From: Nonlabens sp. MB-3u-79
Lineage (GTDB): Bacteria > Bacteroidota > Bacteroidia > Flavobacteriales > Flavobacteriaceae
DNA length: 64,000 nt
Reading direction: 5' to 3'
NCBI RefSeq assembly: GCF_002831625.1
Contig: NZ_CP025116.1
Span: 2,533,501 to 2,597,500 of the forward strand
Of this stretch, positions 38,334 to 64,000 are shown one piece after another. A program made the translations under genes and the position numbers. Positions within the stretch are counted from its first letter, which is position 1, and each line of letters opens with the position of its first letter. Below the pieces are notes generated by a model, which did no database searches, was not told where the DNA came from, and saw nothing but the letters and a program-made list of their open reading frames with translations.

Positions 38334-39488
38334 ATGCAAGAACCTACTATTTACTTTAAAAAAAGCCGCCTTCAACGACAGGACATTGTTGTCTTAGAGT
38401 TTCAATACAGTGCCCCCATTTATACTTTTTTAAAATCCAGCGGATTGGTGTTGTGGAGTGATCAATTGCATAAATGGTATCTTGTTTATGATCGGGATCA
38501 GCTCAACACTCTTTATACACAATTGAAACAACAGCATTTCTTAGTCAATATCAAAGCTGCCCTTCCTCCTATGGAGACCAACAAAGGTTTTAACTTTCAC
38601 AACCTTACTATGTACAAGGACTACCGTTCTTACTTAATAGGCTTGCGTATGAGTGTGAGCACGGTAGACACCTACAGCAACTTTATAATGGCCTATGTAC
38701 GTTATTTAGGATATAAGGACCTGTTAGAAAGCGACGCAGAATGCATTAGAGATTTTATACTTCACAGTGTCCAGCGTTTGAATTACAGCGTGAGTACCCA
38801 CCGACAGATGGTAAGTGCCTTTAAACATTTGGGATTGCTGTATCCTGAATTAGAGACCCTATTGGAAGTAATGAAACGTCCTACAAGAGATAAGTTCCAG
38901 CCACAGGTGTTGAGTACACAAGAAGTTATACTGTTGTTACAAGTGACCGAAAACCTAAAGCATAGATTTGCTTTAGGGATGCTTTACAGTTGTGGTTTAC
39001 GTATAGGCGAACTCTTAAACATGCGTTTATTTCACATTGATCTGGATCGACAACAGGTATTTGTCAAACACGGAAAAGGTCGTAAAGACCGTCATGTAAG
39101 TATTGCGGTGAGCATGTTCCCACTGATTAAAAATTATTTGGCCACTTATAGACCAGAGACCTATGTTTTAGAAAGCCTCTCAGGTGGTCCTTATAGCAGC
39201 AGTAGTATCCGTTCTTTTTTAAGACGTTCTTGTAAGAAAGCAGGTATCACTAAAAAAATAACGCCTCATAGTTTGCGCCACAGCTATGCCACCCATATGA
39301 TAGAGAATGGTGTGGGTTTGCGTCATGTTCAAGAGTTATTGGGTCATAGCAAGCCAGAAACCACGATGTTGTACACCCATATCGCAAGAAAAGATTTACT
39401 ACAAATTGTGAATCCGCTAGATGCTGCTGTCAAAACTTTTAAATCTGCTAAAGAACCACCAAACATCCGTTTATCCGGAGATTTTTAA
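38334..39488 (+). CDS. Tyrosine recombinase of the cassette array
   Basis: 384 residues. An unusual N-terminal domain of about 75 residues precedes a SAM-like core-binding domain (about 90-180) and a catalytic domain. All catalytic residues are visible: Arg223 (CGLRIGEL), Lys248 (HGKGRKDR), His312 and Arg315 (PHSLRHSYATH), His338 (LLGHS), Tyr347 (MLYTHI). The Lys-to-HxxR span is 64 residues, Xer-like; classical IntI has about 106 because of its family-specific insert, which is absent here. It points toward the array and its stop is 33 bp from the first cassette boundary. It is inferred to be the cassette integrase. Confidence 0.88.
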   Translation: MQEPTIYFKKSRLQRQDIVVLEFQYSAPIYTFLKSSGLVLWSDQLHKWYLVYDRDQLNTLYTQLKQQHFLVNIKAALPPMETNKGFNFHNLTMYKDYRSYLIGLRMSVSTVDTYSNFIMAYVRYLGYKDLLESDAECIRDFILHSVQRLNYSVSTHRQMVSAFKHLGLLYPELETLLEVMKRPTRDKFQPQVLSTQEVILLLQVTENLKHRFALGMLYSCGLRIGELLNMRLFHIDLDRQQVFVKHGKGRKDRHVSIAVSMFPLIKNYLATYRPETYVLESLSGGPYSSSSIRSFLRRSCKKAGITKKITPHSLRHSYATHMIENGVGLRHVQELLGHSKPETTMLYTHIARKDLLQIVNPLDAAVKTFKSAKEPPNIRLSGDF

Positions 39489-39528
39489 TGGATAAGGAGT
39501 ATATTTGAGTCGATATAACCAGTTGCCC
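39489..39528 (+). other. Presumed attI integration site
   Basis: The 40 bases between the recombinase stop and the first cassette end in the core GTTGCCC (39522-39528). No long inverted repeat precedes it, unlike every later boundary, so this is the likely insertion point for new cassettes. Confidence 0.65.
39500..39507 (+). promoter_or_regulatory. Possible cassette promoter (Pc) -7 box
   Basis: TATATTTG fits the Bacteroidota -7 consensus TAnnTTTG and lies 26 bases before the first cassette's ATG. No convincing -33 TTTG was found at normal spacing. Confidence 0.4.
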
Positions 39529-39533
39529 ACAAT

Positions 39534-40127
39534 ATGAAAAAACTGCTATCAATAATAATTATACTTCTGATTTGCTCTTGCGCAAGTCCGAAATATAAGG
39601 TTATTGACTTTGGACAATTTGAGATTACTGTTCCTGAAAAATGGAATAAATACGCAAGAAAAGGAATTGATAGTTATGTTGGCGGAATTATTACGGATAA
39701 AAACGATTCGCTAAATTTTGATTTTGGAAGATATTCTGCCGATTTAAGTAAAAGTGATTATCCAATGGTTTATGATTCTATCGGATTAGCAGAACTCACA
39801 AAAAAAGAACGAGAATTATTACCGAAAACTAAACATCTAATTGTCGAAGATTTATTTAAAACAGATGTTGATTTTAAAGAATATTTGCAATACCAAACTG
39901 AATTAGATTCTATTGATTGTTTCAAAGCGAAAATAATTACGCCGAGAAACAAAGGTTACGGAGGAACTGGAATTTACATTGATAGTTTAACTGGTAGCAA
40001 AGAAAAATATAATAAAATCGGAATTGGATTTTATGGATGGTATTTAAACGAAAAAACTCAAACGGAATTTATCAAAGCATTGAAAACATTGCGCTTCGAA
40101 AAATACTGTGGGCAACAACGTATATAA
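39534..40127 (+). CDS. Cassette 1: lipoprotein (197 aa), same as cassette 14
   Basis: A signal peptide with lipobox-like LLICSC (Cys16) marks a lipoprotein. The mature domain begins KYKVIDFGQFEITVPEKWNKY and is of unknown family. Translation runs into the recombination site: the last residues, GQQRI, and the TAA are encoded by the attC arm. The ATG is only 12 bases from the core. The protein is identical to that of cassette 14 (51832-52425). As the first cassette it sits next to the presumed attI and promoter. Confidence 0.85.
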   Translation: MKKLLSIIIILLICSCASPKYKVIDFGQFEITVPEKWNKYARKGIDSYVGGIITDKNDSLNFDFGRYSADLSKSDYPMVYDSIGLAELTKKERELLPKTKHLIVEDLFKTDVDFKEYLQYQTELDSIDCFKAKIITPRNKGYGGTGIYIDSLTGSKEKYNKIGIGFYGWYLNEKTQTEFIKALKTLRFEKYCGQQRI

Positions 40128-40307
40128 AAAATAGCGCGAGTCGTTGCTAACACAAAGGTTCGGGCATTTTTGGAAAGTCGCCAAATTTTTAAATTTGACA
40201 AATTCCCAAAAACAAAATAATTAATAAAATTTAAAAATTCGGCTTGTGTTTTATCCGAAAATTATCGCTTTTTTCAGCGCTACTTTTCATATACAAGACC
40301 GTTAGGC
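40110..40307 (+). repeat. attC 1, family B (198 bp)
   Basis: 5' end GGGCAAC, 3' core GTTAGGC. Arms GTATATAAAAAATAGCGC and GCGCTACTTTTCATATAC pair. The ten bases TGTGGGCAAC complement the cassette start GTTGCCCACA. The inner hairpin is CCAAATTTTTAAATTTG. Confidence 0.85.
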
Positions 40308-40323
40308 ACAATTAAAACAAACT

Positions 40324-40989
40324 GTGGAAAAAGAACCGACATTTACAGAATTCATTGAGCATATATGCAAAAGACCTTTGATGTATTGTTTGGAAAGCAC
40401 TTTTAATGAAATCTCTGCTTTTATAAATGGATATTCTTTTGTTAAAAAAACACCAATAAGCGGAACTGATTTTCATCGATTTGTATGTTTAAAAAATTCA
40501 TTTCCGACAAATTATATTTGGTCTTATGTGATTAAGACTTGTGCTAAAAATGATGAAGAAGCCGTATCGCTTATGAAAAATACAATTCTCGAATTTTGTG
40601 AATTGAAAAATAGAATGAACGAAGATGAAATAATGCAATTTGCTATTGATAATGCTAAAACGAAAGAAGGAGAACCTGAAAAAGTATTTCGGAAATTTGA
40701 CAATGCATTATTAAAAGGAGATAAGAAAGTCATCCAATCTCTAATTGTCGATAATGAAAAAGCGGATTTATTATGGATTGGAAATTATCCCAAATGTGTA
40801 GCTGAGCAATTAAGCGATTTATCAGACGGACAATCGATAAAGAGAATTTACGAATCTGAAAACGGACAGAACATAAAGATATTGACTTCAGGTTGGCCAT
40901 TTCCGATTGAGATGATATTGGAAAATGGCGAATGGAAAGTAAATGCGGATAAAATAATTGAATTAAGAACTGAAAATAACTGTGCCTAA
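40324..40989 (+). CDS. Cassette 2: hypothetical protein (221 aa)
   Basis: GTG start 17 bases after the core. The N-terminal half has the RPLMYCLESTFNEISAFINGY pattern seen in many small immunity-like proteins (RP.MY...L..F..GY). The C-terminal half (about 145-221) looks like an NTF2/DUF4440-type domain ending GWPFPIEMILENGEWKVNAD. Function unknown. The stop TAA lies inside the attC 5' end (GCCTAAC). Confidence 0.75.
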   Translation: MEKEPTFTEFIEHICKRPLMYCLESTFNEISAFINGYSFVKKTPISGTDFHRFVCLKNSFPTNYIWSYVIKTCAKNDEEAVSLMKNTILEFCELKNRMNEDEIMQFAIDNAKTKEGEPEKVFRKFDNALLKGDKKVIQSLIVDNEKADLLWIGNYPKCVAEQLSDLSDGQSIKRIYESENGQNIKILTSGWPFPIEMILENGEWKVNADKIIELRTENNCA

Positions 40990-41178
40990 CACCGTATATA
41001 ACTCATAGCTAATTAGTTGATTAATTCAAAGTTTTAAGCATATTTGCAAGTCCGCCAAATTTTTTAATTTGGCTTATTGAGAAAAAAAGATAATAATAAA
41101 ATTAAAAAATCGGCTCGTGCTTAACCGAATAGTAATCGCTATTTTTAACGCTACGAGCCATATACACAACCGTTGTAC
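40984..41178 (+). repeat. attC 2, family A (195 bp)
   Basis: GCCTAAC ... GTTGTAC. TGTGCCTAAC complements this cassette's start GTTAGGCACA. Family A arms are GTATATAACTCATAGC-like and GCTACGAGCCATATAC. Confidence 0.88.
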
Positions 41179-41201
41179 ACAATTTAGGAACTCAATCATA
41201 A

Positions 41202-41969
41202 ATGAATAAAAATCAAGGAAATAGAATTTTAGGAGCAATATTAATTCCTGAAAAAGAAATTGAACGTTATCATAACGAACTTGGTTTTTTCAAAATAAAA
41301 TTCTCAAAAGAAACTATAAAAGAATACAAAGATACTTTTGATAAGAAACTGAATATTCCATTAACAAAAAGTCATAGTGAGGAATCATTTAAAAGTTTTG
41401 AATTATCTAATTCTTTTCTAATTTCTGAAAACAATAAGAGTTCAATCACTGAACATTATAAAAATTATCCAATTGGAACTTGGTTGGTTGAATACACATT
41501 CAATGACGAAGAAGAATTTCTGAATTTGCTTTCTTCTGACCTAATTGGGTTTAGCATCGAATTAGAATATTCTATTACAGATGAAAATGGAAAAACTTTT
41601 CATCTGAAAGATAATTTTGAACGGATGAATAAATTATCTGAATTACTTTCAATCAATATCTTCATTCGTGGAGGAAGTACTGGTGGGGCTGGAAGAAATG
41701 AACACGGAGAAGCGCATTTTGAAATTCATAAAAAAAATAGTCTTAAGAATATTGGTAAAATATTTATGCCGAAATTAAGCCATTGGAACGAACTAAATTT
41801 TAAAGAAAAATTATCTCTTTTAACAATTGAAAATGGTGAAGATTTACCTAAAAGAGAAAAAAAAGCATTTGTAAAATGGTTGGAAAAAAATGAAAATGAA
41901 AACCTCAAACGTTGCCACAATGAATGGAACAGAATAAATAAGGACAATAATCAAGCAGTATTAATATAA
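41202..41969 (+). CDS. Cassette 3: protein with prohead-protease-like N-terminus (255 aa)
   Basis: The first part (LTKSHSEESFKSFEL, then YPIGTWLVEYTFNDEEEFLN and SSDLIGFSIELEY) resembles the XkdF/prohead-protease-like domain, including the H-S pair. The second part (NEHGEAHFEIH ... AFVKWLEKNENENLKRCHNEW) resembles DUF4160-type small proteins. Both are pattern-level likenesses, not confirmed. Cytosolic, highly charged. Function unknown. Confidence 0.75.
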   Translation: MNKNQGNRILGAILIPEKEIERYHNELGFFKIKFSKETIKEYKDTFDKKLNIPLTKSHSEESFKSFELSNSFLISENNKSSITEHYKNYPIGTWLVEYTFNDEEEFLNLLSSDLIGFSIELEYSITDENGKTFHLKDNFERMNKLSELLSINIFIRGGSTGGAGRNEHGEAHFEIHKKNSLKNIGKIFMPKLSHWNELNFKEKLSLLTIENGEDLPKREKKAFVKWLEKNENENLKRCHNEWNRINKDNNQAVLI

Positions 41970-41978
41970 AAAAACTGT

Positions 41979-42170
41979 GTACAACACCGTATATAGCTCA
42001 TAGCTAAATAGTTGTTTAATCGAAGTTTTAGCATATTTGCAAGTCCGCCAAATTTTTTAATTTGGCTTATTGAGAAAAAAGATAATACGAAAATTAAAAA
42101 ATTGGCTCGTGCTCAACCGAAAAGTAACTGCTATTTTGCACGCTACGAGCCATATACACAACCGTTGTAC
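41979..42170 (+). repeat. attC 3, family A (192 bp)
   Basis: GTACAAC ... GTTGTAC. TGTGTACAAC complements the start GTTGTACACA. The reference copy for family A: GTATATAGCTCATAGC pairs with GCTACGAGCCATATAC. Confidence 0.9.
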
Positions 42171-42196
42171 CCAATTAAAACCGAACTCAAAACTGA

Positions 42197-42820
42197 ATGC
42201 ATAGTGTTGACGAAATAAGAGAAAATTATAAAGACTTTTCCGATTCAAAAATCGAGAATATTGCCAAGAATGAATCGAAAGGTTTAAGAAAAGATGTACT
42301 CGGAATTTTAAAAGACGAAATTGAAAAGCGGAATCTTGACAAAAATTTGATTAGTTGGGTTGAAACAGAAACCAAAAGTTTTGACGGAATTGAACGCGAT
42401 TCTCTGAAAACTAAAATTCAAAATCTGAACTGCCCAAAATGCTCTGAAAAGAAAGATAGACTTTACGGATTTGAAATTAACCAAATCGTATCGGTTTTAC
42501 TTTTTGCGAATGACACGCGGAATGAAAAAATATTGTGTTTGAGTTGTGGTAAAAAAGCAAAGTTTAAGGCGATTTTAATTACTTTTTTTGCAGGTTGGTG
42601 GTCAAGACGTGGAATTTTTCTAACGCCTTTTACTGTTTTAAAAGATTCATTCAACTATCTCTTTATCGAGAAAATTAGTGATAGAATAATTAACCGACTG
42701 ATTGATGAAAACACAGGGCATTTTCGAAGAAAAGGAATTGAAAACGGAACTTTAAACCGATTGATAAAACGAAGGAATGAAAAGGAAATTTTAGAAGACG
42801 AAGGATACGATTTCACCTGA
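42197..42820 (+). CDS. Cassette 4: zinc-ribbon-like protein (207 aa)
   Basis: The N-terminal helical segment (HSVDEIRENYKDFSDSKIENIA) is followed by two CxxC pairs, CPKCSEK and CLSCGKK, which likely bind one zinc. A hydrophobic stretch (AILITFFAGWW) follows, and the C-terminus is charged. Probably membrane-associated; function unknown. Confidence 0.75.
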   Translation: MHSVDEIRENYKDFSDSKIENIAKNESKGLRKDVLGILKDEIEKRNLDKNLISWVETETKSFDGIERDSLKTKIQNLNCPKCSEKKDRLYGFEINQIVSVLLFANDTRNEKILCLSCGKKAKFKAILITFFAGWWSRRGIFLTPFTVLKDSFNYLFIEKISDRIINRLIDENTGHFRRKGIENGTLNRLIKRRNEKEILEDEGYDFT

Positions 42821-42831
42821 TAAAATAACTG

Positions 42832-43027
42832 GGTACAACAATGGCTATAATTAATACGGGTTTTGGTACTTAACCATTAGTTTAGGTGCATTTACTAAGT
42901 CCGCCAAATCTTTTGATTTGGCTTTAAAAATGAAAAAGATAAAACAAAATAAAAAGATTTGGCTAAGTGCTTATTCGGAAATTAATTACTTTTAATTCCC
43001 GTACTAACCATAGCCGAGACGTTAGGC
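42832..43027 (+). repeat. attC 4, family D (196 bp)
   Basis: GTACAAC ... GTTAGGC. Arms TGGCTATAATTAATACGGG and CCCGTACTAACCATAGCCG pair. TGGGTACAAC complements the start GTTGTACCCA. The inner hairpin CCAAATCTTTTGATTTGG is present. Confidence 0.85.
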
Positions 43028-43045
43028 ACAATTAAAAAAAATACC

Positions 43046-43963
43046 ATGAAAAAGTTCAATATTATATTACTGACTTCTACTTTAGTTCATTTATCCTTGT
43101 TTGCACAAACCCATACAAAGATTATTGACATGCATATTCACTCCTACACTGAAAGTGAATTTGAAGGAAAAGAACCAGACCAAGATTATTACGGTAATAA
43201 AGGTTCAAAAGATGCAGAATCACACCGTTTAGAAACATTTGCTGCATTTGAAAAATTTAATATCGTTAAGGCAATGGTAAGTGGTAATCCTGAAAGTGTT
43301 GAGAATTGGGTAACAAAAGATAGTAATCAACGTATCATAAGAGGTATTTTAATGTATACACCAGATGATTATGACATGGATTCTGTAAAATTTGAACAAA
43401 TGGTGAAAGATAATAAAATTGAAGTTTTCGGAGAAACCGCGCCTTATTACGGTGGGACAACGTTAAGTGATTCTATTTGGCAGCCTTACTTACAAATTTG
43501 TGAAAAATATGATATTCCTGTGGCTGTACACATGGGGGGAGGAGATCCTGGTGGAACATATTCTTGGTCACCAAAAGCAAGATTAAAATTAGGTGATCCA
43601 TATACAATTGAAGATGTTTTGGTGAAATATCCTAAACTTCGAATTTATATGATGCATGCTGGTGGAGAAGATTGGCCAGAGCATGCTCTTAGGCTCATGG
43701 CCTATTATCCACAACTCTATACAGATCTTGCAGTAATGTTATGGGTAGAACCTAATACACAACGCTATATTAAAGAATTTATCAAAAACGCAAAAGAAGC
43801 TGGTTATCTAAATCGAGTAATGTTTGGCTCTGATCAAATGAAATTTCCATATGCTATTGAAAAATCAATTAATTTCCTAAAAAGTCTTGATTTCTTGACA
43901 GATAAAGAGAAAGAAGATATTTTTTATAATAATGCAGCAATATTTTTAAAATTGAAAGAATAA
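43046..43963 (+). CDS. Cassette 5: secreted amidohydrolase (305 aa)
   Basis: A signal peptide (to about residue 20) is followed by an amidohydrolase-2 TIM barrel. Metal ligands are visible: His30 and His32 (DMHIH), His162 (VHMGGGDPGG), His204 (MMHAGGEDWPEH), and Asp263 (FGSD). It probably hydrolyses or decarboxylates a small substrate in the periplasm; the substrate is unknown. The gene is identical at protein level to cassette 7 (45165-46082). At over 1 kb it is among the larger cassettes. Confidence 0.85.
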   Translation: MKKFNIILLTSTLVHLSLFAQTHTKIIDMHIHSYTESEFEGKEPDQDYYGNKGSKDAESHRLETFAAFEKFNIVKAMVSGNPESVENWVTKDSNQRIIRGILMYTPDDYDMDSVKFEQMVKDNKIEVFGETAPYYGGTTLSDSIWQPYLQICEKYDIPVAVHMGGGDPGGTYSWSPKARLKLGDPYTIEDVLVKYPKLRIYMMHAGGEDWPEHALRLMAYYPQLYTDLAVMLWVEPNTQRYIKEFIKNAKEAGYLNRVMFGSDQMKFPYAIEKSINFLKSLDFLTDKEKEDIFYNNAAIFLKLKE

Positions 43964-43967
43964 CTGT

Positions 43968-44099
43968 GCCTAACACCGTATAAAAATAATTGCGGTTTAG
44001 TGCTATAAAAAAGGTAGTTGCGTGTTTGCTACATCTGATTTTCCTGCGGAAAATCCTCGCACGCAAACCCGCAACTATTCTTATACATAAACGTTAGGC
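43968..44099 (+). repeat. attC 5, family C (132 bp)
   Basis: GCCTAAC ... GTTAGGC. Short type with central hairpin GATTTTCCTGCGGAAAATC and arms AATAATTGCGG / CCGCAACTATTC. Differs from attC 7 by one base (T/A near 44007). Confidence 0.85.
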
Positions 44100-44233
44100 A
44101 ACATTTGAAAAAAATCGTCCTAAATAACAAACTAAATGAAAAGGGTAATTCACTCATTCTGACTTTCAAGAAACTTAATCAAATCATAGTTTCGAACAAG
44201 AAAAATAAAATTGAATTAACCAAAATCAAACAA

Positions 44234-44944
44234 ATGAAAAAATTAGGACTTTTACTTATCATTGGCTTTTTGACTTTACAAGGTCATTCACAAACTAAAA
44301 ATTTTATCGACCAGCCTTTTTTGGAGACAATTGCGGAAGTTGACACGTTAGTCACACCAGATAAAATTCATTTGATGATTATATTAAACGAGGAAGATAA
44401 TCGTAATCGGAAATCAACAGAAGAATTAGAGGCATCTATGTTTAAGGTTTTAAAATCTTTGAGTATTGATTTAGAAAAATCTTTGTCCGTAGTAGATTAT
44501 AGTAGTGACTTCAAAAAATATTTTCTTGCTGGACAAAAAGTACTGAAAACAAAAATGTTCTCTTTGATTTTAAAAGACGCTCAAACTGTTGGAAAAGTTA
44601 TGGCAGGTTTAGAGCGTGAAGAGATTTCTAATGTATCTATTTCTAAAACAGAATACTCAAAATCTGAACAATTATTGCTTGAGTTAAGAGCAAAAGCTAT
44701 TTTGAAAGCAAAACGAAATGCGGAAAATATGGTTGCGCCTTTAAATCAAAAAATCGGAAAAGCTATTTATGTTTCTGATTTAGAAACTGCATTTATTACA
44801 AGCCAATTACAAGGCAAAGTAGCTGGAGTTCAAATAAGAGGAGCTTCAAGTATTTATGGAAGTCGCGCGAAAGAAGATATTATGATTGATTTTGAAAAAA
44901 TGGCGTTCTCGGCTAAAGTCAACGTGAAATTCATAATCGAATGA
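44234..44944 (+). CDS. Cassette 6: secreted SIMPL-domain protein (236 aa)
   Basis: ATG 44234 gives a signal peptide (MKKLGLLLIIGFLTLQGHSQ). An open frame from TTG 44105 adds 43 unlikely residues. The body follows the SIMPL/DUF541 plan: EVDTLVTPDKIHLMIILNEE, a middle coiled region, and LRAKAILKAKRNAENMV. Within the C-terminal part sits LQGKVAGVQIRGASSIYGSR, which matches the plug-domain motif of SusC/TonB-dependent receptors and is unexpected here. Possibly involved in envelope stress. Confidence 0.78.
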   Translation: MKKLGLLLIIGFLTLQGHSQTKNFIDQPFLETIAEVDTLVTPDKIHLMIILNEEDNRNRKSTEELEASMFKVLKSLSIDLEKSLSVVDYSSDFKKYFLAGQKVLKTKMFSLILKDAQTVGKVMAGLEREEISNVSISKTEYSKSEQLLLELRAKAILKAKRNAENMVAPLNQKIGKAIYVSDLETAFITSQLQGKVAGVQIRGASSIYGSRAKEDIMIDFEKMAFSAKVNVKFIIE

Positions 44945-44952
44945 AAAACGTT

Positions 44953-45146
44953 GCCTAACACCGTATATAGCTCATAGCTAATTAGTTGATTAGTCAAAAG
45001 TTATGGCATATTTGCAAGTCCGCCAAATTTTTTAATTTGGCTTATTGAGAAAAAAAAGTAATAATAAAATTAAAAAATTGGCTCGTGCTTAACCGAAAAG
45101 TAATCGCTATTTTGACCGCTACGAGCCATATACACAACCGTTAGGC
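44953..45146 (+). repeat. attC 6, family A (194 bp)
   Basis: GCCTAAC ... GTTAGGC. GTTGCCTAAC complements the start GTTAGGCAAC. Confidence 0.88.
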
Positions 45147-45164
45147 ACAATTAAAAAAAATACC

Positions 45165-46082: not shown

Positions 46083-46086
46083 CTGT

Positions 46087-46218: not shown

Positions 46219-46234
46219 AACATTAAAGAAAACT

Positions 46235-56979: not shown

Positions 56980-57005
56980 AACAATGCAAAAAAATCCGTA
57001 ATGAA

Positions 57006-57356
57006 ATGAACATTGATGAATTAACAAACAGAATCAGAAAAGTATCATCTGAAAAAAATGTTCAAAATTTGGCGGAATTAATTCAGCAATGGAAAACCAA
57101 TGATAAAAATGCGATTGAACTAAAAAAAAATATCGAACGGTATTTTGAAAATGAATTGATTGACAAAAAATCGGATTTTGAAAAAGTTTACGGAATGTGG
57201 ACGGATTTTAGAGATTCTGCAATTCACGGTATTGGCGGAATGACAATGAACGAAAGACTCTATTTATTTGGGCTTGTTAATTTGTTTGACAATTCAAAAA
57301 ATATATTAGAGCGAGAAAAATTTTATAAAAAATTATTAGCTAAAAATAATGTCTAA
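57006..57356 (+). CDS. Cassette 20, gene 1: hypothetical protein (116 aa)
   Basis: Helical, soluble, charged (VQNLAELIQQWKTNDKNAIE; MNERLYLFGLVNLFDNSKN). No family recognised. The gene overlaps the next start by eight bases (ATGTCTAA), indicating coupled translation. Confidence 0.68.
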   Translation: MNIDELTNRIRKVSSEKNVQNLAELIQQWKTNDKNAIELKKNIERYFENELIDKKSDFEKVYGMWTDFRDSAIHGIGGMTMNERLYLFGLVNLFDNSKNILEREKFYKKLLAKNNV

Positions 57357-57717
57357 ACGAAAAAAAATCAATTTTATTAAACTAATATTCGTGTCCTTAA
57401 TTCTTTCAGGTTGCGAAGGGTTTGTTGGCGAAAATGGTGTTGTTTTAGATATAGAAACTGGCGAAAGGATTTCAAATGTAAAGGTAAAATTAGAAACTTC
57501 TAATGTAAATGGAATTACCGATTCGACTAACAAGAATGGATATTTTGAAACTTCAACTCTTGTTGGTTGTGTATTTGGAGGTTGCGATGAATATCAATTA
57601 GTATTTGAAAAAGACGGATATTCAACTAAAAAAATTGATGAAAATTATCGTAGAAACTCAAGTACCAAATTTATTGAGGAATCTGACACATTAATAATTG
57701 AACTAAAAAGAAACTGA
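57349..57717 (+). CDS. Cassette 20, gene 2: lipoprotein with carboxypeptidase-regulatory-like domain (122 aa)
   Basis: Signal ending in LILSGC (lipobox Cys). The mature part has GVVLDIETGERISNVKVKLE and KNGYFETST, the pattern of carboxypeptidase-regulatory-like/DUF2606-type beta domains. Probably outer-membrane anchored. Cotranslated with the preceding gene. Confidence 0.75.
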   Translation: MSKRKKINFIKLIFVSLILSGCEGFVGENGVVLDIETGERISNVKVKLETSNVNGITDSTNKNGYFETSTLVGCVFGGCDEYQLVFEKDGYSTKKIDENYRRNSSTKFIEESDTLIIELKRN

Positions 57718-57729
57718 AGAAAGCACTGT

Positions 57730-57921
57730 TTACAACACCGTATATAGCTCATAGCTAATTAGTTGCTTAAACTAAGTTTGGGCATATTTGCAAGTCCGCC
57801 AAATTTTTTAATTTGGCTTATTGAGAAAAAAGATAATAATAAAATTAAAAAATTGGCTCGTGCCTAACCGAAAAGTAATTGCTATTTTGCACGCTACGAG
57901 CCATATACACAACCGTTGTGC
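57730..57921 (+). repeat. attC 20, family A (192 bp)
   Basis: TTACAAC ... GTTGTGC. The end TGTTTACAAC only imperfectly complements the start GTTGGCAAACA (one substitution and one deletion), the clearest exception in the array. Confidence 0.85.
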
Positions 57922-57941
57922 TCAAGCTTAAAAAAACCGTG

Positions 57942-58388
57942 ATGGAATTAAAACCACGTATTGGAATTGATAATATTAAGTTTGGAATGACAAAATCCGA
58001 AGTTATCGAAATATTGGGTTCGCCTGATAAAATCTCAAACGAGAATTACGGATTAGAAAACGAAACGGAAGAGATAATTGAGTGGAATAAACCAAAACTG
58101 CGTTTGACATTTGAAAAAAGCGAAAACTATCGATTGACTTATATTCGAGTTCAAAATCAGTCGCTGACGTATAATGGAAAAAAAATAATGAACCAAACCG
58201 CTGAATTTTTAAAATCTGATATTTTCGCTGATATTTCAAACAAATGGGAAGTGGAAAATTATGATTTTTGTGATGTTCACTTTGATGAAGAAAATTGGTT
58301 ATCTATTAATATCGAATTTGGAGTTGCAAATGAATTTGAGTTCGGAACAACTTTTAAAAATGATAATGAATACGATTGGCCAAACTGA
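57942..58388 (+). CDS. Cassette 21: SmpA/OmlA-like hypothetical protein (148 aa)
   Basis: Contains IKFGMTKSEVIEILGSPD, the helix-turn pattern of SmpA/OmlA/BLIP-like small domains, followed by strands. No signal peptide, so cytosolic here. ATG 57942 is preferred over GTG three bases earlier. Function unknown. Confidence 0.74.
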   Translation: MELKPRIGIDNIKFGMTKSEVIEILGSPDKISNENYGLENETEEIIEWNKPKLRLTFEKSENYRLTYIRVQNQSLTYNGKKIMNQTAEFLKSDIFADISNKWEVENYDFCDVHFDEENWLSINIEFGVANEFEFGTTFKNDNEYDWPN

Positions 58389-58411
58389 CAAGTATTGTGA
58401 AGAAAGCCAGA

Positions 58412-58603
58412 GCACAACACCGTATATAGCTCATAGCTAATTAGTTGTTTAATCAAAGTTCAGGCATACTTGCGAGTCCGCCAAATTTTTTAATTTGGCT
58501 TATTGATAAAAAAGATAATAATAAAATTAAAAAATTGGCTTGTGCTTAACCGAAAAGTAATCGCTATTTTGCACGCTACGAGCCATATACACAACCGTTG
58601 TGC
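58412..58603 (+). repeat. attC 21, family A (192 bp)
   Basis: GCACAAC ... GTTGTGC. GAGCACAAC complements nine bases of the start GTTGTGCTC. Confidence 0.88.
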
Positions 58604-58608
58604 AACAT

Positions 58609-59040
58609 ATGAAAAAAATCGTTTCCATAATCATACTATTAGTTTTCGGAATGTCTTTTGGACAAAATAAAAATGAAAATGATGTTGAGGAGTTGGACGT
58701 GAAAACATTTCGCTGGATAACGGAAAATTGTTCCGATTTGAACAATCCATATGAAAATGATTTGTGCATTAAAAATGAAATAAACAAATTTATAAACAAG
58801 AATTTGAAATGGTCTATTACTGAAAATTTACCAAATGGGAATTATGAAGTTAGAATATATTTAACGATAGAAAAGGATGGCAAAATTTTTAAAATAATTG
58901 CTAAAAGTGATTATGAAGAACTGAACAACGAATTGAAGAATACTCTTATGTTATTTCAAAATCGAATTAAATTTGTTGATGAAAACAAAAACGCTTATAA
59001 GAATACATTAAGTTTTCCAATAACAATTAATGTGGGATAA
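58609..59040 (+). CDS. Cassette 22: secreted TonB-C-like protein (143 aa)
   Basis: A signal peptide (IVSIIILLVFGMSFGQ) is followed by a domain with EVRIYLTIEKDGKIFKI and a C-terminal TLSFPITINV, reminiscent of the TonB C-terminal domain. The ATG begins only six bases past the core. Periplasmic; function unknown. Confidence 0.74.
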   Translation: MKKIVSIIILLVFGMSFGQNKNENDVEELDVKTFRWITENCSDLNNPYENDLCIKNEINKFINKNLKWSITENLPNGNYEVRIYLTIEKDGKIFKIIAKSDYEELNNELKNTLMLFQNRIKFVDENKNAYKNTLSFPITINVG

Positions 59041-59046
59041 TACGTT

Positions 59047-59238
59047 GCACAACAACGTATATAGCTCATAGCTTTTCAGTTGCTTAATCGAAGTTAAGGC
59101 GTGTTTGCAAGTCCGTCAAATTTTTTAATTTGGCTTATTGAGAAAAAAGATAATAATAAAATTAAAAAATTGGCTTGTGCTTAACTGAAAAGTAATCACT
59201 ATTTTTCACGCTACGAGCCATATACACAACCGTTACCT
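59047..59238 (+). repeat. attC 22, family A (192 bp)
   Basis: GCACAAC ... GTTACCT. GTTGCACAAC complements the start GTTGTGCAAC. Confidence 0.88.
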
Positions 59239-59243
59239 GCAAG

Positions 59244-59708
59244 TTGAAAAAAATCGAAACTAACATAACAGACAGAACAATAAAATTTGTGGAATTTGAT
59301 ACCGCAAAAAACTGGATTTCGGATTTTCCGACTGACAATTGGTGTCTGATTTTAATTGCGGACGAAAAAAAAACGAATTATTTTGACGAAATAATCCGAA
59401 AATCAATTGACAGAAATGTTGGTTATATCTGTGGAGTTGGAAAACAAGCTGATTTGATTCACGATATGGCGGACGAAGAAATTGGATTTCGAGATGTTGA
59501 CATTGACGACCATTATTTACCTGAACACGTAATAATGACTGTTGCCGATGAAGATTTTGAAAATGGAATTTGGTTCGGTCTAAATCTGACCTTTAATTCC
59601 GAAACCGATATTAATGAAATTGTAATAGTTGATGTGACTAAAAAAGCGTTTGAGAAAACAACTGAATTAATAAAGAAATTAGAAAGCGGATATTTGCCAG
59701 CGGATTAA
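59244..59708 (+). CDS. Cassette 23: hypothetical protein (154 aa)
   Basis: TTG start directly after the core (no nearby ATG). Alpha/beta protein with WCLILIADEKKTNYFDEIIR, VGYICGVGKQADLIHD and PEHVIMTVADEDFENGIWFG. The C/HD spacing recalls a family of small immunity-like proteins, not named with confidence. No signal peptide. Confidence 0.7.
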   Translation: MKKIETNITDRTIKFVEFDTAKNWISDFPTDNWCLILIADEKKTNYFDEIIRKSIDRNVGYICGVGKQADLIHDMADEEIGFRDVDIDDHYLPEHVIMTVADEDFENGIWFGLNLTFNSETDINEIVIVDVTKKAFEKTTELIKKLESGYLPAD

Positions 59709-59718
59709 AAAAACCTGC

Positions 59719-59849
59719 AGGTAACACCGTGTATAATTAATGGCTAGCCCTCGCCTACTCACAAAAATCCTAGCGGATTTTCTATTCGGTTTGTATTTAC
59801 TAAATTAGGTGCTTCAACACGCCACTAATCATACACAAGACCGTTGCCA
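59719..59849 (+). repeat. attC 23, family E (131 bp)
   Basis: AGGTAAC ... GTTGCCA. Short type with AAAATCCTAGCGGATTTT. TGCAGGTAAC complements the start GTTACCTGCA. Confidence 0.85.
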
Positions 59850-59866
59850 CACATTTGAAAAACACA

Positions 59867-60343
59867 ATGCGAACGATATTAAAATATTTAGGATTAGTTA
59901 TTATTATGACGATGATTGGATTTGTAATTCGAAACTATTTCTTTGAACTGTCATTATCGCAAATAGCAAATAATAACGTGGAAGTTGTTTCCAGAAATAT
60001 GAGCGGACAATTTCAATCTCATATTATTTTCGCTCTGACAATTGGAATTTTACCACTACTCTATCTAATTATTGAAAAGATCACCAAATTAGAATTTATT
60101 AAGAAAGGTTTAATTGCCTGCGGAATATTAATTACGAGCGGAGTTGTATTGTGGCAATTCAGAATCTATCAACTGAATACTGAAGTTCAAAAATTATCTG
60201 AATACAACATTACTAATGACTTTAAAATGTCTTTAGATTATGAAATTCTAAATTTTGATAGGTTTTTATTTTTTGGTTTTTTGATAGGAACGATTATAAG
60301 TATTTTGATTTTTCGAAATAGAAAAAAAAACCACGCTGAATAA
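59867..60343 (+). CDS. Cassette 24: membrane protein (158 aa)
   Basis: Three to four helices (YLGLVIIMTMIGFVIRNYF; SHIIFALTIGILPLLYLII; LIACGILITSGVVLWQF; FGFLIGTIISILIF). ATG 59867 or TTG 59855 are both possible starts. Function unknown. Confidence 0.7.
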   Translation: MRTILKYLGLVIIMTMIGFVIRNYFFELSLSQIANNNVEVVSRNMSGQFQSHIIFALTIGILPLLYLIIEKITKLEFIKKGLIACGILITSGVVLWQFRIYQLNTEVQKLSEYNITNDFKMSLDYEILNFDRFLFFGFLIGTIISILIFRNRKKNHAE

Positions 60344-60351
60344 AAAACGTG

Positions 60352-60550
60352 TGGCAACAATGTATATAAAAAATAGCGCAAGTCGTTGCTCAATAAATGG
60401 TTTGGGCGTTTTTGGAAAGTCGCCAAATTTTTAAATTTGACAAATTCCCAAAAATAAAATAATTAGTAAATTTAAAAATTCGGCTTGCGTATCATCCGAA
60501 AAGTTATCGCCTACTTTCAGCGCTACTTTTCATATACGGAACAGTTGTGA
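60352..60550 (+). repeat. attC 24, family B (199 bp)
   Basis: TGGCAAC ... GTTGTGA. GTGTGGCAAC complements the start GTTGCCACAC. Confidence 0.86.
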
Positions 60551-60571
60551 GCAATTTTAGATCAAATACAT

Positions 60572-61138
60572 ATGAAGATAAAACCAAACGCTACTTCTGA
60601 TGAAAAGTCTTCACCATTTTATAAAATAAATGAAGATTTTAGCGCTGATTTTGAAAAATACATCGCAGCAAAAAACGGGAAAGTAAAAGGTAATTACAGC
60701 GCTTGGTCTTATTTGATTTTTGGAAAAATATATTCACCAAAAAAGTGGAATTTGATGTATAAGAAAGCAACATATACGACTAGCGGTAATTTATTTCTCT
60801 CTTCCAAATCTCAAAGCCTGTTGGTATTAGCTGAATGGGAAACTGAAAGAAAAGGAACTCATAATTCTGAATTTACCATAAGAAAAAAAACAAATATTGA
60901 CTTTTTGAGAAAAATCATAAACAAGTCTTTATTCGAGTTGGATTTGACCGATAAGTATATCTTAGAAACTAAAAACAACCAACCACAACTAATTTCCAAA
61001 CTAACCAGAATACTGAAAAGTCTTTTCTTATCTGGGGAGATATATAAGATTGATCATCGTGATGACAAATTAAAAATTGAAATGAGAACTGAAAAGCATC
61101 ATTTCGAAATACTGGATAAATTAATAACTGAGATATAA
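60572..61138 (+). CDS. Cassette 25: hypothetical protein (188 aa)
   Basis: Soluble, with GNYSAWSYLIFGKIYSPKKWN and a strand-helix C-terminus (EMRTEKHHFEILDKLI). No recognised family, signal or catalytic motif. Confidence 0.72.
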   Translation: MKIKPNATSDEKSSPFYKINEDFSADFEKYIAAKNGKVKGNYSAWSYLIFGKIYSPKKWNLMYKKATYTTSGNLFLSSKSQSLLVLAEWETERKGTHNSEFTIRKKTNIDFLRKIINKSLFELDLTDKYILETKNNQPQLISKLTRILKSLFLSGEIYKIDHRDDKLKIEMRTEKHHFEILDKLITEI

Positions 61139-61145
61139 AAACTGC

Positions 61146-61338
61146 TCACAACAACGTATATAGCTCATAGCTAATTAGTTGTTTAATCGAAGTTATGGCA
61201 TATTTGGAAGTCCGCCAAATTTTTTAATTTGGCTTATTGAGTAAAAAAAGTAATAATAAAATTAAAAAATTGGCTTTAGCTTAACCGAAAAGTTATCGCT
61301 ATTTTGCACGCTACGAGCCATATACACAACCGTTCTAC
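61146..61338 (+). repeat. attC 25, family A (193 bp)
   Basis: TCACAAC ... GTTCTAC. TGCTCACAAC complements the start GTTGTGAGCA. The core GTTCTAC departs from GTTRRRY at its fourth base. Confidence 0.86.
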
Positions 61339-61343
61339 ACCAT

Positions 61344-61643
61344 TTGAAAAAAATATTCGCCATATCATTAATAACCTTTTTTATCTTAGCATTCGTGGCG
61401 CTTTCTATGGGTGGCGGTCATGGATTTTTTTGGCCAGCTAAAGTGGTTTATCCATATTCAATGATAATAGCAATAACAAATAACCAGATCGGAATTTTAG
61501 CAATTATAGTGGCTGTTCTACAAGTTCCGATTTATGGATTTATAGCACATAAAAAAACTAAATGGACTTATCTAATTTTCGGAATTCATTTGATTTCAGC
61601 AGTTATTTGCCTGAATTTACCAACAGAAACCTTTAGCGGATAG
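61344..61643 (+). CDS. Cassette 26, gene 1: membrane protein (99 aa)
   Basis: TTG start five bases after the core. Three helices, with MGGGHGFFWPAKVVYPYSMI between the first two. Its TAG is directly followed by the next ATG, so the two are cotranslated. Function unknown. Confidence 0.65.
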   Translation: MKKIFAISLITFFILAFVALSMGGGHGFFWPAKVVYPYSMIIAITNNQIGILAIIVAVLQVPIYGFIAHKKTKWTYLIFGIHLISAVICLNLPTETFSG

Positions 61644-62054
61644 ATGAAAATAGGAATTGTAAGAGCACTGATATTTTACGGAATTGGTTTCGGCATTGCG
61701 GGAATAGTTTATTTGATTATTGGTCATCCGTATATTCACGCACCAGGAATTCATCATTTTATTTTATTACTTACAGTATTAATTGGATTAATTTGGACGA
61801 TTATAAGTTTAGCTATCTATTTTTTTAAAGAAAAGACAAAAACACTTAGTGGATTTATTTTAACAAATTTGATTATAATAATTGGATGTGCTTTATACAT
61901 AGAAGCTCCTTTATATCTTGATTCTAAGAAAAAAAATAACGTCCCAACAGAATTCATAAAGACGGAAGTAACTGGAGATACAACTAAAATATATCACAAT
62001 GAAAATCTGATTTTTATTAAAGTTAAAGATTCTGTACTTTTAGATTTGAGATAA
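61644..62054 (+). CDS. Cassette 26, gene 2: membrane protein (136 aa)
   Basis: Three helices followed by a short soluble tail (TEVTGDTTKIYHNENLIFIK). The pairing with gene 1 and zero spacing suggest a two-component membrane unit. No family recognised. Confidence 0.7.
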   Translation: MKIGIVRALIFYGIGFGIAGIVYLIIGHPYIHAPGIHHFILLLTVLIGLIWTIISLAIYFFKEKTKTLSGFILTNLIIIIGCALYIEAPLYLDSKKKNNVPTEFIKTEVTGDTTKIYHNENLIFIKVKDSVLLDLR

Positions 62055-62075
62055 AACAAACCAAAGAAAAACGGT

Positions 62076-62272
62076 GTAGAACAATGTATAAAAAACATAG
62101 GGCGTTTGTGGTTTAACCGAAAGGTCTGTGTCTATTTACAAAGTCCGCTAAATATAAAATTTAGCGTTTACAGAAGAAAAGATAAAAGCAAAATATTTAT
62201 ATTTAGCTAAGTAATAAACCGAAACAATAGTGCTTATCACCTGCCCTACGTTTCTTATACGTAACGTTGTGT
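62076..62272 (+). repeat. attC 26, family G (197 bp)
   Basis: GTAGAAC ... GTTGTGT. GGTGTAGAAC complements the start GTTCTACACC, so the non-consensus base is matched at both ends. Inner pair GCTAAATATAAAATTTAGC. Confidence 0.84.
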
Positions 62273-62298
62273 GTAAGTTAAAAAAACAGAACGCAAAA

Positions 62299-62658
62299 AT
62301 GACAGAAACTGTTGAATTGAGGAATAAGCCCGAATTGAAAATAATTCTGAACGAAAACGAATTCGAAATCGTTGATGCTTCTGAACCGAAAAACAGCGGA
62401 ATCTACTCATTTGGAAAACTTAAAAATGCGAAATTGAATGTGGAAAGAACGAATTGGTTGATAACTACTTTAAGTATAATTGTGGATTTATTTACTGGAG
62501 GTGCTGTAGGTGGAAAATTTAAGGATAAAGCAAACTTAAATCTTGATATGGAAAATCTGAATTTTAAAGTTTGGCTGATCAATGCAGATATTGAAAAAGC
62601 AAAACGAGTAACGGAATTAATAAACAGTAAAAAAACCTACACACAACACCGTATATAG
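62299..62658 (+). CDS. Cassette 27: hypothetical protein (119 aa)
   Basis: Small protein with LRNKPELKIILNENEFEIVD and a Gly-rich hydrophobic segment (IIVDLFTGGAVGGKF). ATG 62299 is the first start in the cassette. The final residues YTQHRI and TAG are encoded by the attC arm. Function unknown. Confidence 0.7.
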   Translation: MTETVELRNKPELKIILNENEFEIVDASEPKNSGIYSFGKLKNAKLNVERTNWLITTLSIIVDLFTGGAVGGKFKDKANLNLDMENLNFKVWLINADIEKAKRVTELINSKKTYTQHRI

Positions 62659-62832
62659 CTCATAGCTAATTAGTTGTTTAATCGAAGTTATGGCATATTT
62701 GGAAGTCCGCCAAATTTTTTAATTTGGCTTATTGAGAAAAAAGATAATAATAAAATTAAAAAATTGGCTTGTGCTTAACTGAAAGGTAATCGCTATTTTG
62801 CACGCTACGAGCCATATACATCACCGTTATGC
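62641..62832 (+). repeat. attC 27, family A (192 bp)
   Basis: ACACAAC ... GTTATGC. TACACACAAC complements the start GTTGTGTGTA. Confidence 0.88.
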
Positions 62833-62844
62833 TACATTAGACCA

Positions 62845-63630
62845 ATGAAACAAACATTAATACTTTTAATTGGAATTTTAGTTTCCACAACAACTTTTTC
62901 GCAGAACAAAGCGACGGAATTATATACTTCTGGAAACTCGAATTTTAAATCAGGAAAATTTCAAGAGGCAATTTCAAATTATACGGAATTGATGGAAATG
63001 GTGGACGAAAAAACTGTTCGAAAAACTTGTTTCATAAATCGTGGACTATCATATGACCGAATTAAAAAATATGATTTAGCAATATCTGACTTTACAGAAG
63101 CAATTAAGTTGGACAGCACTGATATGGCTTCCTTTATAGACAGAGGACTTTCTCAAATGCACGCTGGAAATTTAGAAAAAGCAAAAGAGGATTTTAATTA
63201 TGTCGTTGTAAAAAACAATAACAATGGAATGATGGAAGCATCACTTTATTGGCTCGCTCGAATTAATTATTCTCAAGGTAAGTTTGAGGAAGTAATTAAA
63301 AATTGTGACAGATATTTTACCATAAACGCAAAAGACCCTGAATTATATTTCATTCGTGGAACGGCGAACGATATGTTGCGGAATTTTGAGCAATCAATAA
63401 TTGACTATTCAAAAGCAATTGAATTAAAACCAAATTATGTGGAATCTATTGCAAATCGTGGAACTGCGAAAATCAATCTTCTGACTGGAAACGGAAATTT
63501 ACAACCGAGTAAAAAAGAAACGAAAAGTGCTTGTAAAGATTTAAAGAAAGCGAAAGAATTGGGAGATAATGCAGTCGATGATTTAATTTATGTTTATTGC
63601 GACAGAAAAGATAAAAAGAAACGGAATTAA
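62845..63630 (+). CDS. Cassette 28: secreted TPR protein (261 aa)
   Basis: A signal peptide (LILLIGILVSTTTFSQ) is followed by about five tetratricopeptide repeats, such as GNSNFKSGKFQEAISNYTEL, GLSYDRIKKYDLAISDFTEA and RNFEQSIIDYSKAIELKP. These form a protein-binding superhelix in the periplasm. The partner is unknown. It has an intact ATG 12 bases from the core. Confidence 0.85.
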   Translation: MKQTLILLIGILVSTTTFSQNKATELYTSGNSNFKSGKFQEAISNYTELMEMVDEKTVRKTCFINRGLSYDRIKKYDLAISDFTEAIKLDSTDMASFIDRGLSQMHAGNLEKAKEDFNYVVVKNNNNGMMEASLYWLARINYSQGKFEEVIKNCDRYFTINAKDPELYFIRGTANDMLRNFEQSIIDYSKAIELKPNYVESIANRGTAKINLLTGNGNLQPSKKETKSACKDLKKAKELGDNAVDDLIYVYCDRKDKKKRN

Positions 63631-63637
63631 TAACGTA

Positions 63638-63769
63638 GCATAACACCGTATATAATTTATTGCTAGTTCTAGCCTACTTACGAAAATCCTCGCGGATTTT
63701 CTATTCGGTTTGTATTTGCTAAATTAGGTGCTTAAAACACGCAACAAACCATATACAAACAAGTTGTAA
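63638..63769 (+). repeat. attC 28, family E (132 bp)
   Basis: GCATAAC ... GTTGTAA. GTAGCATAAC complements the start GTTATGCTAC. Central hairpin GAAAATCCTCGCGGATTTTC. Confidence 0.85.
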
Positions 63770-63796
63770 AACATTTGAACAAAACCACGAACTGAA

Positions 63797-64000
63797 TTGG
63801 GAACTTGGGGAACAGCCATAAAAAGTAATGATACTTCAGCAGATATTTATGCTGACTTTTTTGATTTGTATAATGACGGAAAAGAACCAACTGAAATCAA
63901 AAACAAATTGATTTCCGACAATCCAAACGGAACAAATGACTTTTGGTTTACATTGGCTTTAGCTCTTTGGGAAACTAAAAGCTTGCCAAATGACATTTTG
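63797..64000 (+). CDS. Cassette 29: DUF4259-like protein (3' truncated by the window)
   Basis: From TTG 63797 the product starts MGTWGTAIKSNDTSADIYAD, the opening typical of DUF4259 proteins (MG.WG....ND.A.D). 68 codons are visible and the frame is open at the edge. No ATG is available nearby, so TTG is inferred as the start. The cassette's own end lies outside the window. Confidence 0.75.
   Translation, partial: MGTWGTAIKSNDTSADIYADFFDLYNDGKEPTEIKNKLISDNPNGTNDFWFTLALALWETKSLPNDIL

Follow-up and report, generated by a model that had tools for sequence, protein, structure and literature searches.

Organization of the locus

The window, that is the whole stretch of 64,000 nt analysed here, contains an intact open reading frame for a tyrosine recombinase, and 33 nt past the end of this gene begins an array of cassettes (Table 1). 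The array comprises 28 complete cassettes between 39522 and 63762, in tandem on a single strand and in one orientation, with lengths of 548-1198 nt (mean 866), and all 28 end in an attC-like site. This agrees with the first-pass annotation, which had described a recombinase gene followed by 28 complete same-strand cassettes. A + strand ORF of at least 122 aa is present in 26/28 cassettes, and none longer than 51 aa in the cassettes starting at 48235 and 53315. Duplicated cassettes are identical from GTT to GTT (779/779 and 1072/1072), one copy standing at the attI-like position, and cassette 5 has an identical copy about 54 kb downstream, outside the window. Cassette 20 is possibly a fusion of two cassettes.

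Table 1. Recombinase gene, adjoining elements and cassettes, in window positions
Feature	Positions	Strand	attC-like site	Remarks
Recombinase gene	38334-39488	+		tyrosine recombinase, 384 aa, intact, without IntI insert
N-terminal domain	38334-38558	+		residues 1-75, predicted small alpha/beta domain, additional relative to canonical IntI
Predicted cassette promoter	39500-39507	+		TATATTTG, matches Bacteroidetes -7 element TAnnTTTG
attI-like site	39512-39524	+		GATATAACCA/GTT, boundary before GTT; predicted insertion point of cassette 1
Cassette 1	39522-40300	+	40108-40309	779 nt, identical to cassette 14
Cassette 2	40301-41171	+	40982-41180	
Cassette 3	41172-42163	+	41977-42172	
Cassette 4	42164-43020	+	42831-43029	
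Cassette 5	43021-44092	+	43966-44101	amidohydrolase (PF04909)
Cassette 6	44093-45139	+	44951-45148	SIMPL domain
Cassette 7	45140-46211	+	46085-46220	copy of cassette 5 (1071/1072)
Cassette 8	46212-47036	+	46843-47045	
Cassette 9	47037-48234	+	48107-48243	RelA/SpoT-domain protein
Cassette 10	48235-48783	+	48575-48792	no ORF >51 aa, repeated cassette family
Cassette 11	48784-49892	+	49705-49901	DUF5677
Cassette 12	49893-50643	+	50456-50652	
Cassette 13	50644-51819	+	51694-51828	NHL repeats
Cassette 14	51820-52598	+	52406-52607	identical to cassette 1
Cassette 15	52599-53314	+	53128-53323	
Cassette 16	53315-53862	+	53655-53871	ORF-less family, no ORF >51 aa
Cassette 17	53863-54786	+	54599-54795	
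Cassette 18	54787-55984	+	55798-55993	DUF2199
Cassette 19	55985-56972	+	56784-56981	DUF2199
Cassette 20	56973-57914	+	57728-57923	start mismatches own end
Cassette 21	57915-58596	+	58410-58605	
Cassette 22	58597-59231	+	59045-59240	
Cassette 23	59232-59842	+	59717-59851	
Cassette 24	59843-60543	+	60350-60552	
Cassette 25	60544-61331	+	61144-61340	
Cassette 26	61332-62265	+	62074-62274	
Cassette 27	62266-62825	+	62639-62834	
Cassette 28	62826-63762	+	63636-63771	TPR repeats
Cassette 29	63763-64000	+		start only; ends at 64765 (continued coordinates), past the window

The array continues past the window: in continued coordinates, the stretch from 39.5 to 99.8 kb holds 53 cassettes that match exactly at positions 4-9. 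The whole genome has 65 hits of the site model at E<=0.01. Synteny of two congeners with the window ends at 37.6 kb, directly past a sigma-factor (RpoD-like) gene. The next 20-40 kb of the congeners gave no match longer than 250 nt to the following ~220 kb of this chromosome, so that no right-hand border was found. No Rfam family matched positions 36000-64000 at gathering scores.

The recombinase

The missing insert is the 42-aa insert (I2) of IntI, and the region in question has 17 residues in the recombinase as compared to 60 in the Vibrio IntI (2a3v). The distance from the lysine K to the HxxR motif is 64-67 aa in the 104 of 108 relatives in which it could be measured, all of them without the insert, versus 107 aa in 11 of 12 canonical IntI, which have it (the twelfth was not measured). 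The match of the recombinase to the IntI model TIGR02249 is split and falls under the cut-off, which bears out the earlier statement that the adjoining recombinase lacks the insert specific to IntI. It is nevertheless the best-scoring gene for this model in its own genome, where no match lies above the cut-off; a canonical intI in another part of the chromosome or genome, which the first-pass annotation had named as a refuting finding if it fitted these sites, was thus not detected by TIGR02249. The best-scoring family model is the XerA-type NF040815 with 188.5 bits (cut-off 220), and the scores for the XerC and XerD models are 160.8 (cut-off 329.6) and 152.7 bits (cut-off 335.15); none of the three cut-offs is reached. 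The genome has two more recombinase genes with the size of Xer, at 233,768 and 391,848, which are presumed to be XerC/XerD. The catalytic residues R223, K248, H312, R315, H338 and Y347 are intact in the recombinase and invariant among 38 aligned relatives. An N-terminal extension covers about residues 1-95 and may replace I2; since the structure comparison barely covers residues 1-86, no new fold is claimed for this part.

In the phylogenetic tree, clade A, which comprises one set of these recombinases, and IntI each fall on one side of a supported branch, so that a clade distinct from IntI is supported by the sequences. The order in which A, B, IntI and the Xer-like proteins branch is poorly settled, and the row L001 forms a very long branch. 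Arrays adjoin at least two related groups of recombinases, A and B. The earlier suggestion of a separate lineage therefore holds as regards the distinctness from IntI, but not as regards a single lineage.

Cassette ends and the attI-like site

In 27/28 cassettes the first 10 bases are complementary (9-10/10) to the cassette's own end, and rarely to that of the neighbour. Over positions 4-10 the complementarity totals 187/196, whereas 20,000 random pairings reached 123 at most, the cassette end in this test being picked among AACs for the best own match. When the ends were picked by the inner arm alone, the own start was matched (>=6/7) in 27/28 and the next start in 1/28. Two of the 28 boundaries, 48784 and 53863, had themselves been located via the own match. 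This complementarity implies that the complete site would arise in a circular cassette only, and the match of start and end is, judged from sequence, the mark of cassettes that would formerly have been circular. The pairing is symmetric under reversal and cannot place the site before or after the gene, and orientation from it was rejected; the site is placed at the 3' end of the cassette because the identical cassette blocks settle the orientation. A first list of sites made by regular expression held chance hits and was dropped, and chaining by own match was used instead. The core consensus of integrons is GTTRRRY; 5/28 cassette starts fit it, and 27/28 fit GTTR.

A putative attI next to the recombinase gene, which is one of the marks of an integron, is indicated by the sequence. 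A ATATAACNA/GTT-type motif within 150 nt of the recombinase stop was found in 41/50 clade-A loci, as against 3.3% of random stretches. In 23 of these 41 motif-bearing loci a relaxed TAnnTTTG-like (-7-like) element precedes the motif by 12-15 nt, and in at least 18 of the 23 by exactly 13 nt.

Predicted folding of the sites

Measured from the R'' 9-mer to the R' 9-mer, the sites are 196-203 nt long in 19/28 cassettes, 217-218 in two and 135-137 in 6/28 (cassette 20 is misassigned in this measurement). The assertion that they are longer than usual thus stands for most of them. Compensatory changes in the bottom-strand structure amount to 187 double-change cells as compared to a shuffled mean of 59.6, with 0/500 shuffles as high, for 52 sites whose selection relied in part on a complementary inner-arm 5-mer. 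RNAalifold gave -7.02 kcal/mol for the bottom strand versus -0.61 for the top strand.

The sites differ from ordinary attC. Their outer arm has 14 nt with A.C at position 11, which is a T.G wobble on the bottom strand; this A.C is present in 329/370 cassettes versus 2/64 near canonical IntI. Wobbles in the inner arm are asymmetric, with 146:4 in this array and 526:91 in 40 related loci, as compared to 34:25 in 8 canonical-IntI loci. In the own array 48/56 sites are unbulged. At the middle penalty 246/336 sites over 38 loci are unbulged, 10 of these loci being without an unbulged majority, whereas 46/50 sites beside canonical IntI are bulged; the contrast varies with the penalty (unbulged 231/347, 246/336 and 265/328; bulged beside IntI 53/56, 46/50 and 29/40). 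The extrahelical bases on the folded bottom strand by which integron sites are recognized are thus mostly lacking, to an extent that depends on the penalty.

Distribution of the recombinase and the sites

Sites of this kind, one or more per genome, were found in 266/299 sampled genomes of the family: in 189/191 recombinase-positive and 77/108 recombinase-negative genomes (Fisher p 2e-13, uncorrected for kinship or genome size). Sites without a recombinase at E<=1e-40 accordingly occur in 77/299 genomes, and nine of these, when examined, had only weaker recombinase matches, at least two of them broken. At least two chained cassettes within ~19 kb were present at 23/28 loci, drawn from complete genomes or long contigs, versus 1/28 reversed sequences. 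These figures and the 189/191 speak against a recombinase that occurs mostly without arrays, the outcome against which the first-pass annotation had wished its proposal to be checked. Five of 20 clade-A loci (L144, L148, L149, L152, L153) have no chained cassettes nearby; the site model still matches in four of the five, once in L148, and nowhere in L144.

The R1 site model matches at 27/28 recombinase loci and 0/16 canonical-IntI loci. In a phylum-wide sample it has a hit in 123/247 genomes, and hence it is not confined to its own family. Canonical IntI above the cut-off occurs in 70/247 genomes of the phylum, and because 29 of the 123 genomes with a hit have both, IntI elsewhere may use such sites. 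Among the matches listed, canonical IntI above the cut-off is absent from the own family, and a single one, G333, comes from a different family within the class of this organism. XerD-like loci proved invalid as a negative control, as several insert-less recombinases in family f23 also lie near sites that fit this model, with at least three chained cassettes at 2/7 such loci; these recombinases, which have no N-terminal extension, may be a third lineage.

Discussion

Our data indicate that this locus is probably an integron-like platform, on which the insert-less recombinase would capture, excise and re-insert cassettes. The best reading of the sequence is that the platform would be integron-like in its working, yet its recombinase is without the IntI insert and its sites are mostly without bulged bases. 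The substrate would be the folded bottom strand. Arm positions reading A.C on the top strand can pair as T.G wobbles only on the bottom strand. The strand would be marked by this asymmetry, which would stand in for the bulged bases read by the I2 helix of IntI. Exchange would take place at GTT, and cassettes would insert at the attI-like site; expression of the first cassettes would be driven by a promoter that ends directly before this site.

An ordinary double-strand, Xer-like exchange at short core sites, in which single-strand folding plays no part, is unlikely. It suits an enzyme without I2 whose resemblance to archaeal XerA is as strong as that to integron integrase, and the attI-like site, as judged without folding, has no obvious hairpin; but it fails to explain the compensatory pairing across 120-200 nt, the cassette-specific pairing of start and end and the strand bias of the wobbles. 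We hold it very unlikely that the array is a CALIN-like relic of a canonical integron, which lost its intI and is adjoined by an unrelated recombinase. The 77 genomes with sites and no recombinase count towards a relic, as does the canonical IntI in 70/247 genomes of the phylum, 29 of which have a site-model hit somewhere. However, among the matches listed canonical IntI is absent from the own family and appears once elsewhere in the class, arrays of canonical IntI in this phylum have sites of another build, the model has no hit at 16 canonical loci, and the adjacency of the enzyme, the attI-like motif and the site design recur across dozens of loci. It is very improbable that the cassettes are mobilised by housekeeping Xer recombinases, with a different role for the adjoining recombinase. 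To our knowledge Xer proteins are nearly universal, and sites persist in some genomes that lack the recombinase, both of which would suit mobilisation by Xer; against it, all site-model hits are more than 80 kb away from the genes at 233,768 and 391,848, the array starts right behind this recombinase, and the attI-like motif adjoins this recombinase family, the one that the motif search covered.

Beyond the capture of cassettes at this locus, we lean somewhat towards the view that Flavobacteriaceae and their relatives possess a second kind of integron, in which an insert-less recombinase acts on folded single-stranded sites without I2 and mostly without bulges, the strand being chosen through G.T wobbles. 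Single-strand cassette capture without I2 would then predate I2 or have arisen twice. In the parts of the literature available to us, recombination of single-stranded DNA is tied to the I2 helix (PMC7790495, PMC9668308), and I2 is currently viewed as having enabled it (PMC7790495); because of this tie an insert-less enzyme is expected to be incapable of it. If the second-integron reading is true, single-strand cassette capture needs no I2. The available sections of two integron surveys describe selection for the IntI insert (PMC2426708, PMC9024848), and one of them reports, beyond Chlorobi and Ignavibacteriae, one complete Bacteroidetes integron, in Salinibacter (PMC9024848). To the extent that these sections represent them, published surveys appear to have overlooked a pairing of enzyme and site that recurs across the family. 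No insert-less integrase with such arrays was described in the titles and abstract openings searched, which were those of published, mostly open-access papers. Should the enzyme act as proposed, there would be a large overlooked pool of mobile genes, and the origin of integrons would become testable via swaps of enzymes and sites between two natural designs.

Comparison with known systems

The recombinase has the same fold as XerC/XerD and, like them, no insert, but it is far below both family cut-offs and separate Xer-sized genes are present in the genome. Archaeal XerA is a dimer resolvase and is not known as a cassette recombinase. Its model NF040815, named 'site-specific tyrosine recombinase/integron integrase', is the best model and the closest solved structures, for the catalytic part, are of this type, although the score stays under the cut-off. 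As compared to a sedentary chromosomal integron (IntI, attI, attC), the locus differs in the missing IntI insert and the N-terminal extension of ~95 aa, in a recombinase that reads in the direction of the cassettes, and in sites with a 14-nt outer arm, a wobble at position 11, a mostly unbulged inner arm and few GTTRRRY starts. It shares with such an integron the tandem same-strand cassettes, the GTT junction, the complementarity of start and own end, an attI-like site by the recombinase, long arrays, duplicated cassettes and site clusters without an enzyme.

Results

The cassette array reported by the first-pass annotation is real. The first cassette begins 33 nt past the end of the recombinase gene, and each of the 28 complete cassettes in the window carries GTT followed by variable bases at its start and a long inverted-repeat site at its end. 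In 27 of the 28 the own start and own end are complementary over 9-10 of 10 bases, and the observed total of own matches was not reached by random pairings of starts and ends in 20,000 trials. When the end was picked from the inner arm alone (the pairing further in) and the start was ignored, the own start was still matched in 27/28 cassettes (6 or more of positions 4-10); the start of the next cassette matched equally well in 1/28. Such complementarity is expected for cassettes once closed as circles at GTT. Cassette 20 is the sole exception and contains two ORFs that overlap, as would result if two cassettes had fused. The array extends beyond the window, with 53 cassettes up to 99.8 kb when the window numbering is carried past 64000 (exact match, positions 4-9). 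Cassette products matched in Pfam include amidohydrolase, SIMPL, RelA/SpoT domain, NHL repeats, TPR repeats and DUF2199, and many window cassettes have no Pfam match over the cut-off.

Features of the array and of its own genome (window numbering; C1, own-genome chromosome)
Feature	Position	Strand	Remark
Tyrosine recombinase gene	38334-39488	+	384 aa
GTT of first cassette	39522
ORF of cassette 9	47058-48104		RelA/SpoT-domain protein; matches PADLOC candidate defence family PDC-S33
528-550 nt cassette family, window copies	48235-48783; 53315-53862		six copies, 84-95% alike, four of them past the window; no ORF >51 aa in either window copy
DUF2199 proteins	54828-55817; 56222-56791		from two adjacent cassettes
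Cassette 20	56973-57914		no own start/end match
Second cluster of same-type sites	C1:1,720,531-1,762,915	opposite	outside the window
Frame within second cluster	C1:1,744,956		481 aa; weak tyrosine-recombinase match

There are signs of movement. Cassette 1, which lies at the attI-like site, is identical to cassette 14 (779/779 bases); an identical copy of cassette 5 (1072/1072 bases) lies about 54 kb off, and cassette 7 differs from cassette 5 by one base. Identity between duplicates starts 0-3 bases from GTT, and in those followed to their end it ceases after the next GTT, the flanks being unlike. Cassette 5 was matched in 95 of 299 Flavobacteriaceae genomes, by its site part alone in nearly all among the matches listed. 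Synteny with two congeneric genomes ends at 37.6 kb, ahead of the recombinase.

The adjacent recombinase indeed lacks the IntI insert, as had been proposed. Its named relatives place the window in Flavobacteriaceae. It matches XerA-, XerC/D- and integron-type models, every score being below the cut-off of that model. At the insert it has 17 residues, whereas the Vibrio integrase 2a3v has 60. Lysine box and HxxR are 64-67 aa apart in 104 of 108 related loci (the other four gave no measurement), in contrast to 107 aa in 11/12 loci of canonical IntI from the same phylum. About 95 extra residues are present at the N-terminus, of which residues 1-75 are predicted to form a small alpha/beta domain, in a model with mean pLDDT 82 and pTM 0.54 and low confidence near 342-355. 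In a quick tree, built after removing mostly empty insert columns, the 14 rows of canonical IntI and the 19 rows of clade A (window gene included) are each set apart from the rest by a branch with full SH-aLRT support; clade B, the related insert-less group, was not resolved in it.

The sites differ from canonical attC in both arms. The outer arm, in which a cassette's start pairs with its own end, spans 14 nt over 40 insert-less loci against about 11 nt in 8 canonical-IntI loci. Across the 40 loci positions 12-14 are paired in 85-95%, and position 11 is an A.C mismatch in 269/307 cassettes; the canonical arm is without this mismatch. All 28 window cassettes carry it, and among loci of three or more cassettes it is in the majority in 37/39, against 0/8 canonical loci (by cassette, 329/370 against 2/64). 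Read on the bottom strand, this top-strand A.C becomes T.G. Wobble pairs of the inner arm are biased in the same direction, 146:4 in the own array and 526:91 in related loci, whereas canonical sites show 34:25; one inner G.T pair is common to 50/52 aligned sites. The inner arm is without a bulge in 246/336 sites (majority in 28/38 loci) but bulged in 46/50 canonical sites (7/7 loci), a contrast whose size varies with the bulge penalty. In G314, a genome with both systems, 4/4 canonical sites are bulged and 4/4 of the other sites unbulged, with the position-11 mark in only 2/4 of the latter.

Past the recombinase stop, a ATATAACNA|GTT-type, attI-like motif occurs within 150 nt in 41 of 50 clade-A loci having a C-tail of at least 62 aa, against 3.3% of random stretches from the same loci. 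It lies 14-35 nt past the stop in 31 of the 41. A few of the 41 matches (L020, L022, L148, L070) look like chance. Clade B has a related motif in 23/53 loci, mostly 68-129 nt off (background 2.0%). A relaxed element of the TAnnTTTG type, the flavobacterial -7 consensus (PMC6847099), stands 12-15 nt upstream in 23 of the 41 clade-A loci, mostly at exactly 13, and a promoter is predicted there, before the attI-like site.

Discussion

Had the recombinase occurred mostly without arrays, its role would be in doubt; the opposite was found. It is present in 191 of the 299 family genomes (E<=1e-40) and at least one site in 266 (covariance model, E<=0.01), both together in 189, an association whose Fisher test is uncorrected for genome size and kinship. 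The enzyme occurs without sites in G062 and G284 only; 31 genomes have neither. The 77 with sites alone resemble the known site-only clusters of integrons, and in nine of these examined there are weaker recombinase matches only, at least two of them broken. By a model-free method at least two chained cassettes were found at 23/28 enzyme loci, against 1/28 reversed sequences, and at 8/12 canonical IntI loci. In 49/80 loci the draft contig stops less than 3 kb past the enzyme on the downstream side, in 5/80 on the upstream side, in keeping with assemblies that break at repeats.

The phylum-wide sample, which overlaps the family in part, counts against the explanation favoured here: the site model matches in 123/247 genomes, and 29 of these belong to the 70 whose canonical IntI scores over the cut-off. 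Searched directly at the loci, the model matched at 0/16 canonical IntI and 27/28 insert-less recombinases. Canonical IntI is frequent in the phylum's other classes (70/247 genomes), and none from Flavobacteriaceae stands among the listed matches over the cut-off. In the taxonomic family f23, from another class, recombinases of 280-319 aa that lack both the insert and the N-terminal extension (L194:2365-17774, L196, L198, L201) lie near sites of the same model, from which they are apparently divergent; they are possibly a third lineage. In other classes, G304 and G314 (L204-L207) appear to hold canonical IntI together with the insert-less system. The proposal of a separate cassette-capture system in Bacteroidota is largely right, clade A standing apart from canonical IntI in the tree.

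Selection for a folded bottom strand best accounts for the pairing over spans above 100 nt, for the compensatory changes within it and for the strand bias. The recombinase would bind the arms of the folded strand, exchange strands at GTT and join the cassette to attI.

IntI is defined through its additional domain (PMC2426708, PMC9668308), and in one classification the insertion is described as essential to integron function, yet incompletely conserved within the subgroup (PMC8138268). The IntegronFinder 2.0 account gives one complete Bacteroidetes integron, in Salinibacter, besides Chlorobi and Ignavibacteriae (PMC9024848), and a review lists Bacteroidota among integron-bearing phyla (PMC8618304). 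No description of an insert-less array system was found among the titles and abstract openings of the published, mostly open-access papers that were searched.

Judged by its sequence features, the platform appears to work like an integron. Two defining features of integrons, the IntI insert and the bulged attC, are wanting, and it is therefore filed outside integron membership, as a variant. Extrahelical bases matter for how canonical integrons recognise the bottom strand (PMC3053210); such bases are docked by the I2 helix, which also impedes second-strand exchange (PMC7790495). The insert-less system, by contrast, has no I2 helix and for the most part no bulges, and wobble pairs could serve instead to mark the strand.
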